The notes beneath the pieces were generated by a model. The model was not told the DNA's origin and ran no database searches. It saw nothing but the letters and a program-made list of their open reading frames with translations. DNA of 64,000 nt from Micromonospora fulviviridis (lineage in GTDB: Bacteria > Actinomycetota > Actinomycetes > Mycobacteriales > Micromonosporaceae): contig NZ_BMRA01000004.1 in NCBI RefSeq assembly GCF_014648395.1, forward strand, positions 419,394 through 483,393, given 5' to 3'. Numbering within the stretch: position 1 is the first letter of the stretch; every line of letters starts with the position of its first letter. Shown here one piece after another: positions 1,291 through 4,289 of this stretch. The translations under genes were made by a program, and so were the position numbers.

Positions 1291-1296
1291 TACACT
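1291..1296 (+). promoter_or_regulatory. Candidate -10 box of the leuS leader transcript
   Basis: TACACT fits the actinobacterial TANNNT -10 pattern and lies 7 nt before the ATG of the leader peptide, so transcription would begin at or next to that ATG (a leaderless leader peptide). No good -35 is visible upstream. Inference from spacing only. Confidence 0.5.
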
Positions 1297-1303
1297 GCCG
1301 GTC

Positions 1304-1342
1304 ATGGCCGGAGTCTTCCTGCTTCTTACCGAGCCGTGCTGA
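1304..1342 (+). CDS. Putative leuS leader peptide (12 aa) with three consecutive Leu codons
   Basis: The frame reads M-A-G-V-F-L-L-L-T-E-P-C-stop. Three consecutive leucine codons (1319-1327) sit in a 12-residue frame just upstream of a Leu-tRNA synthetase gene and immediately before a terminator. This is the arrangement expected of a ribosome-stalling leader peptide: low charged tRNA-Leu would stall translation over the Leu codons and change downstream RNA folding. The leader is preceded at 7 nt by a -10-like box, so it is probably leaderless. No database comparison could be made; function is inferred from codon content and position. Confidence 0.6.
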   Translation: MAGVFLLLTEPC

Positions 1343-1394
1343 TGCGCTGAGCGCGCGACAGCACGGCGGCCCCTCCTGCGCGAGGGGCTTTTTT
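1333..1394 (+). terminator. Candidate transcription attenuator upstream of leuS
   Basis: Two structures are visible. The first is a 9-bp hairpin GCCGTGCTG (1333-1341) with CAGCACGGC (1359-1367), whose 5' arm overlaps the end and stop codon of the leader peptide. The second is a classical intrinsic terminator, GCCCCTC (1369-1375), loop CTGCGC, GAGGGGC (1382-1388), followed by six T (1389-1394). U-tract terminators are rare in such GC-rich genomes. A weaker competing pairing CGCGCG (1352-1357) with TGCGCG (1377-1382) would invade the terminator loop and stem. The terminator lies 54 nt before leuS, so it would control it. Confidence 0.7.
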
Positions 1395-1448
1395 GTGCCC
1401 GCAGCAGACCTCCCATATCCGACATGACCCGCGCCGAGGAGACACGCC

Positions 1449-4289
<2,841 letters not shown>

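Follow-up and report, generated by a model that had tools for sequence, protein, structure and literature searches.

Organization of the leuS upstream region

The window (the whole 64,000-nucleotide stretch of Micromonospora fulviviridis DNA analyzed here) encodes a leucyl-tRNA synthetase, leuS, which is preceded by a short open reading frame (ORF) with consecutive leucine codons, a hairpin that we call P1, and an intrinsic terminator that we call T. The features of this region are given below in window coordinates.

1291..1296, + strand: -10 box TACACT (TAnnnT type), read from the sequence; a good -35 was not seen
1304..1342, + strand: leader ORF MAGVFLLLTEPC with its stop, 12 codons, probably leaderless, putative +1 at the A of the ATG
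1319..1327, + strand: Leu codons CTG CTT CTT, the proposed sensor, the last two being conserved
1333..1341, + strand: P1 5' arm GCCGTGCTG, spanning the final ORF codons and most of the stop codon
1343..1357, + strand: P1 upper stem-loop, differing in sequence and length among relatives
1359..1367, + strand: P1 3' arm CAGCACGGC, adjoining the terminator
1368..1394, + strand: intrinsic terminator T, stem CCCCTC/GAGGGG, loop CTGCGC, T tract
1436..1442, + strand: Shine-Dalgarno-like GAGGAGA of leuS, read from the sequence
1449..4289, + strand: leuS, leucyl-tRNA synthetase, 67 Leu codons, all CTG

An earlier note on this DNA had described a -10-like box, an ATG 7 nt beyond it, a 12-codon leucine frame, a 9-bp hairpin over the stop codon, and a 7-bp stem followed by six T, and every one of these elements lies where it was placed. 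The leader ORF begins with an ATG at 1304, seven bases after TACACT, and ends with a TGA at 1340-1342. P1 comprises 9 bp, with GCCGTGCTG (1333-1341) pairing with CAGCACGGC (1359-1367) in a hairpin that spans 1333-1367. The T stem pairs 1369-1375 with 1382-1388 (8 bp counting a G-U pair, 1368:1389) and is followed by a tract of six T (1389-1394), with 54 bases from the end of T to the leuS ATG. A terminator scan of 900-1700 returned 2 overlapping sites where 0.2 were expected, and a sigma-70 consensus scan of the same interval found no promoter, which leaves the -10 box, together with its conservation, as the evidence for one. The minimum-free-energy (MFE) fold of 1304-1394 (-48.1 kcal/mol, z -3.5, equalled by 2 of 200 shuffles) places P1 and T side by side, together with a short weak stem inside the ORF.

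The window had no Rfam match at gathering score, and a search of 1200-1460 up to an E value of 5 gave just five sub-threshold matches to unrelated families; this absence of matches agrees with the earlier statement that there is no T-box at leuS. We also considered whether T is a common repeated terminator of this genome and rejected the idea, as its exact pattern occurred once, and once more with 2 mismatches, against 3 matches in a backward control.

Conservation and distribution of the leader

All 250 Micromonosporaceae genomes searched contained leuS, and we collected one upstream region from each of 110 of them (25 of 44 genera, with the better-scoring leuS taken among the matches listed), in addition to a named sample of 80 loci with genus names. 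The alignment input comprised 153 of 158 rows; L020, L024, and L180, in which the helix was misplaced, were left out of the 58 nonredundant sequences, and a covariance model was built on the resulting 55 (35 family, 20 named) out of 190 loci. Full-length matches to this model were found at 110/110 Micromonosporaceae loci and 54/80 named loci, and at 75/75 family and 34/60 named loci outside the training set; two short opposite-strand matches (L133, L134) are expected for a hairpin. Such conservation is a stronger test of the element than either the fold or the terminator scan. The matching named loci came from Micromonospora, Plantactinospora, Catellatospora, Hamadaea, Glycomyces, Streptomyces, Kitasatospora, Actinoallomurus, Actinophytocola, Lentzea, Kibdelosporangium, Blastococcus, Geodermatophilus, Modestobacter, Brachybacterium, and one unplaced actinomycete MAG (L070). 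The 26 named loci without a covariance-model match included Nocardia (3), Cellulomonas (3), Gordonia, Corynebacterium, Isoptericola, Janibacter, Actinotalea, Cellulosimicrobium, Actinomycetospora, and Aeromicrobium, loci from other classes and phyla, and L107, which has just 64 bases of upstream sequence and is too short to tell.

A class-wide search with the same model, run under filters that miss weak matches, gave matches at an E value of ≤0.001 in 195 of 394 genomes, representing 80 of 137 genera. Among 60 of these matches that we fetched (25 families, the better-scoring among the matches listed), leuS follows in 57; in the other three the contig ends (L255) or another gene follows (L260 and L274). 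The locus in the window (E value 8e-31) and the Streptomyces loci (E value ≤8e-21) are recognized by one covariance model that had both in its training set, and alignment A1 contains rows from both Micromonospora and Streptomyces; by these sequence comparisons the leuS element is homologous to that of Streptomyces. We note that LeuS occurs in two kinds, of about 946 and about 830 residues (G480, G639), and that the leader precedes either, depending on the family. In G480 it stands before the short LeuS gene only, which would fit an exchange of either the gene or the leader.

Leaders were read by script at 201 loci with P1 and T, 188 of which were kept by a geometry filter; the 13 dropped include L013, L020, L024, and L030, which are intact by eye and in which the script chose another helix. 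The last Leu codon of these 188 leaders is CTT in 183, CTC in 4, and another codon in 1, and the middle one is CTT, CTC, or CTG in 72, 64, and 50, respectively, and another codon in 2. Two Leu codons stood in the expected frame in 148 of 149 family and named loci that had been selected by hairpin geometry (including the GCC foot of P1) without use of the Leu codons, the sole misfit being L180 with its misplaced helix. Both codons were also present in 38 of 39 class loci, for which the search model itself included these codons. The short ORF with consecutive Leu codons that the earlier note described before leuS is thus borne out, with its Leu codons conserved, and the comparison of frame, Leu codons, and stems among relatives that the note proposed came out in favor of conservation in both the upstream alignment and the covariance tests. 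The leader is 12 residues long in 136 of 187 cases. In 15 of the 187 the stop codon is shifted three codons upstream, to the foot of P1, and the distance from the P1 arm to the Leu codons is unchanged; the quantity that is conserved is the position in the RNA of the P1 arm relative to the Leu codons.

The start codon (ATG in 168, GTG in 19) lies 6 or 7 nt past the TAnnnT box in 187/187 leaders read, under a script that accepted only leaders with this box at a distance of 4 to 10 nt, and the TA...T of the -10 box is kept in 54 or 55 of 55 alignment rows. TAnnnT is also the -10 motif reported for Streptomyces lividans (PMC8079986). Because the start codon follows the -10 box by 6 to 7 bases in every one of the 187 leaders, the leuS transcripts are probably leaderless, starting at or next to the leader ATG, and the homologue in S. 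lividans has been reported as leaderless; the leaderless start suggested previously therefore holds as a probability.

Two abutting hairpins

P1 pairs are intact in 96.8% of the cells of the 55-row alignment, with changes on both sides at 4 of its 9 pairs. Such both-side changes amount to 35 cells, 20 in P1 and 15 in two foot pairs of T; shuffles averaged 13, and 0 of 500 reached 35. The loop of P1 ranges from 6 to over 40 nt among relatives. The terminator scan and the alignment together confirm a conserved intrinsic terminator upstream of leuS. P1 covaries; in T, two foot pairs vary and the core pairs are without any covariation. The core of the T stem and its loop (CTGYGY) are nearly invariant in the 55 rows, which exceeds the need of a plain terminator. 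As a side observation, the almost invariant stem and loop CCCCTCCTGYGYGAGGGG (1370-1387) resembles an anti-Shine-Dalgarno sequence. TGCCC or TGTCC directly after the T tract (1396-1400) is likewise kept in most alignment rows, with the Streptomyces rows differing.

P1 and T are separated by 0 to 2 nt in 143 of 165 family and named loci and 41 of 43 class loci, compared with 3 of 38 in a reversed-sequence control, counting loci where the script found both hairpins within an allowed gap of -3 to 40; the same script did not find the P1-T pair in 25 of 190 family and named loci and 17 of 60 class loci. A base-sharing antiterminator was not found, as P1 (-25.4 kcal/mol) and T (-15.1 kcal/mol) fold side by side. 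The antiterminator previously suggested, 1352-1357 with 1377-1382, did not survive the alignment: 64.9% of cells pair in the 55 sequences compared with 65.3% in shuffles, and column 1353 is a gap in 50 of 55 rows. T is predicted to fold at every ribosome position tried, and since the hairpins share no bases, the switch is not readable from pairing or thermodynamics alone. Extension of P1 into the 5' arm of T was also considered, and a by-eye reading of the upstream sequences did not reveal consistent pairing.

Leucine codon choice in leuS

In the leuS of the window, 67 of 67 Leu codons are CTG, whereas the remaining 38 mechanically called, gene-like ORFs use 555 CTC and 5 CTT among 1,626 Leu codons (34% CTC). 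Thirty Micromonospora leuS genes together contain 6 CTC and 1 CTT in 2,054 Leu codons. Within the same genome, rpoB (part), valS, fusA, ilvB, two trpS genes, and ileS contain 131 CTC and 2 CTT in 350 (Fisher P = 6e-13), and leuA contains 11 CTC among 44. The contrast between an all-CTG leuS and CTC-rich other genes indicates that leuS avoids the CUC/CUU pair used by the leader. The shares of C- versus G-ending codons for seven other amino acids in leuS are near those of other genes, and these shares together with the seven genes above rule out a general codon bias as the source of CTC avoidance in this genome. A single tRNA-Leu (GAG) is expected to read both CUC and CUU; the window contains no tRNA genes.

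Across the class, we compared the CTC plus CTT share of leuS with that of neighboring gene-like ORFs, which were mechanically called and serve as the codon background in other genera. The median ratio is 0.18 for 30 leuS genes with the leader and 0.70 for 24 without (P = 3e-4), and by family it is 0.14 for 19 leader-bearing families and 0.70 for 10 others (Mann-Whitney P = 0.002, a statistic that ignores phylogeny); loci with fewer than 40 background Leu codons were dropped (1 of 31 with the leader, 3 of 27 without). Here "without" means absent from the class-wide covariance-model matches listed under strict filters. Reading the 27 upstream regions of this group by eye showed no intact element. 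A relic may survive in L331, L344 and L346 were picked up by a loose motif search, and L357 comes from a genome with another leuS that is preceded by the leader. Exceptions occur on both sides, with ratios above 0.5 in 11 of the 30 leader-bearing genes and a ratio of 0.10 in the leader-less G280, and we conclude that codon avoidance goes with the leader, imperfectly.

A model for leuS attenuation

We consider it likely that the element is a leader-peptide transcription attenuator of leuS, and its layout suggests that it probably raises output of the enzyme when charged Leu-tRNA is scarce. The ribosome would translate the 12-codon leader behind RNA polymerase. With ample charged tRNA-Leu it would reach the stop codon and mask the 5' arm of P1, so that P1 is blocked, T is free to fold, and transcription mostly stops near 1394. 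If Leu-tRNA is uncharged, chiefly the CUU/CUC-reading isoacceptor, the ribosome would instead stall in the Leu codons and P1 could form, its base touching the base of T and hindering closure of T in the RNA exit channel, and polymerase would continue into leuS. Our preferred reading is steric: the stem of T would have to shut far inside the exit channel, its base beside the RNA-DNA hybrid, and a helix abutting that base would obstruct it. In this view P1 itself would be the hairpin controlled by the ribosome.

The stalling geometry uses general values for the size of the ribosome footprint. When either of the first two Leu codons occupies the A site, the edge of the ribosome would lie near 1331-1334 and most of P1 would be free. 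With the third, best-conserved codon in the A site, an assumed edge at 1337 would cover half of the P1 arm, and just the upper part could fold; this is the weak point of the model, which the first two codons would fit better than the last. A ribosome at the stop codon would have its edge near 1352, covering the whole P1 5' arm, or at about 1343 where the stop comes early. We note that in Streptomyces coelicolor, substitution of candidate regulatory codons upstream of ilvBNC was without effect (cited in PMC1262725), so some leaders of this type may be nonfunctional. In Escherichia coli, moreover, a nearby ribosome can itself repress a terminator (PMC4824070), which would favor the opposite polarity.

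Classical attenuation by base sharing, in which a hidden pairing between leader and terminator (e.g., 1321-1328 with 1381-1388 or 1352-1357 with 1377-1382) would be the true antiterminator, seems to us unlikely, although it could account for the otherwise unexplained near-invariance of the T core and loop. The Leu codons and the 3' arm of T, which the first of these pairings joins, are both near-invariant, 87.4% of cells pair, and the covariation score exceeds all 500 shuffles; for the LEU element of leuA, moreover, pairing between the Leu codons and a Shine-Dalgarno box has been proposed (PMC1262725). However, both-side changes in this pairing amount to 8 cells, 7 of them at one pair and 6 of these U-A, and a purine-rich GAGGGG can pair with almost any CUNCUU run. 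By the usual footprint, a ribosome at either the Leu codons or the stop would also cover the Leu codons, leaving the pair exposed on untranslated RNA alone. The second pairing stands at shuffle level, and neither is present in the MFE fold.

We think it slightly less probable again that P1 serves chiefly as a hairpin that pauses polymerase until the ribosome has caught up, with the distance from ribosome to terminator directly setting termination. P1 is a stable hairpin that would lie just upstream of a possible polymerase pause site, and a terminator near a stop codon has been reported as repressed in E. coli (PMC4824070), but the pause model leaves unaccounted for both the spacing of mostly 0 to 2 nt between P1 and T and the holding of the P1 arm at the Leu codons despite a shifted stop. 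A very improbable reading is that T ends an independent transcript for a small RNA or small protein and that leuS has its own promoter after 1394, for which the 54 bases between T and the leuS ATG can be cited. Against this, the leader unit keeps its place before leuS across many families, a TAnnnT box lies (by eye) just before leuS in about half of the 27 leader-less loci, and it would have to be chance that a leucine enzyme is preceded by Leu codons.

Returning to attenuation by an abutting P1, a leuS message almost without sensor codons would remain translatable while the CUU/CUC isoacceptor is short. It is possible, though we hold this tentatively and with some doubt, that leader and gene form a two-codon circuit in which the leader senses the CUU/CUC isoacceptor and leuS, purged of those codons and nearly all CUG, mounts a response that is not throttled by the shortage, with a leader hairpin that touches the terminator without exchange of base pairs in a layout common to ilvB and Ile leaders of these bacteria. 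The codon split fits selective-charging theory (PMC1183508), as well as the reported robustness of E. coli structural genes (PMC3783181). It offers a natural test case for selective tRNA charging, as the leader would sample one leucine isoacceptor that the synthetase message avoids, and makes long-standing theory on codon choice in starvation-responsive genes testable outside E. coli.

Relation to known attenuators and related leaders

The idea of leuS attenuation has precedents. An attenuator of leuS was predicted in 2005 for S. coelicolor and Streptomyces avermitilis (Seliverstov et al., PMC1262725), with a Leu-codon leader ORF and antiterminator and terminator hairpins before leuS as here; the prediction covers these two species only. 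RNA-seq of S. lividans TK24 in 2021 identified leuL2, a leaderless 12-residue MRAVRLLLSEPR followed by a hairpin and U stretch before leuS (PMC8079986). It has the same peptide pattern as MAGVFLLLTEPC in a different genus, and in the consulted sections of its account we did not meet an analysis of hairpin spacing or codons. In the open-licence literature, with subscription papers mostly outside its scope, we noticed neither this leader in Micromonosporaceae nor codon avoidance in leuS. The present analysis adds the breadth of the element, the abutment of P1 on T without shared bases, and the split in leucine codons between leader and leuS. What had been predicted for two species now extends over much of the class and has a defined, testable geometry; the leuS leader is real and conserved, and the abutting hairpins and the codon split are the two features worth testing.

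By analogy, the closest tested precedent for abutting hairpins is the ilvBNC attenuator of Corynebacterium glutamicum, described with control codons CUU and GUA and an adjacent antiterminator and terminator (PMC11857589). Its hairpins overlap in a GCC trinucleotide, whereas the leuS hairpins abut within 0 to 2 nt and share none. The ilvB1 attenuator of Mycobacterium tuberculosis also has an upstream ORF with control codons, where a ribosome at the stop masks the antiterminator, but it serves a biosynthetic operon, has a 166-nt leader, and is stated to have mutually exclusive hairpins (PMC13236596). In a classical trp-type attenuator the antiterminator shares bases with the terminator, which P1 and T at leuS do not. 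The LEU element of leuA has a Leu-run leader peptide, as at leuS, but a pseudoknot and Shine-Dalgarno pairing are proposed there (PMC1262725), and the leuA leader of S. lividans is described as lacking a typical terminator (PMC8079986), unlike leuS here. The T-box riboswitch likewise senses tRNA charging before synthetase genes, but was not found at leuS.

Related arrangements were seen elsewhere in the same genome. Upstream of ileS (L289) lies GGTGGTACCGCGG, which we take to be a T-box-like motif, suggesting a second kind of charging sensor in this genome. The region upstream of leuA (L298) encodes MWRAYLLLGCRDEA, which has codons CTT CTC CTT and a -10 box spaced as for a leaderless start, and resembles the LEU element. 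Upstream of ilvB (L284), a leader MSSNRSLRVLT is followed by a perfect hairpin abutting a terminator in a leuS-like layout (by eye); a -10 box spaced for a leaderless start was not detected by the script before this leader. Here, as in L260 below, the layout goes with codons suited to a pathway other than that of leuS, which counts in favor of the attenuator model. The two class matches that precede other genes, read by eye, are of this kind as well. L274 has an ilvB-type leader, VRFSTLVLGRRVG, before an ilvB-like gene. In L260 (G567:C278), a leader MHSTIIIRERVDV with a run of Ile codons, followed by a hairpin and terminator, stands before a gene that appears cimA-like, i.e., citramalate synthase-like, and may represent an isoleucine version of the leuS layout.
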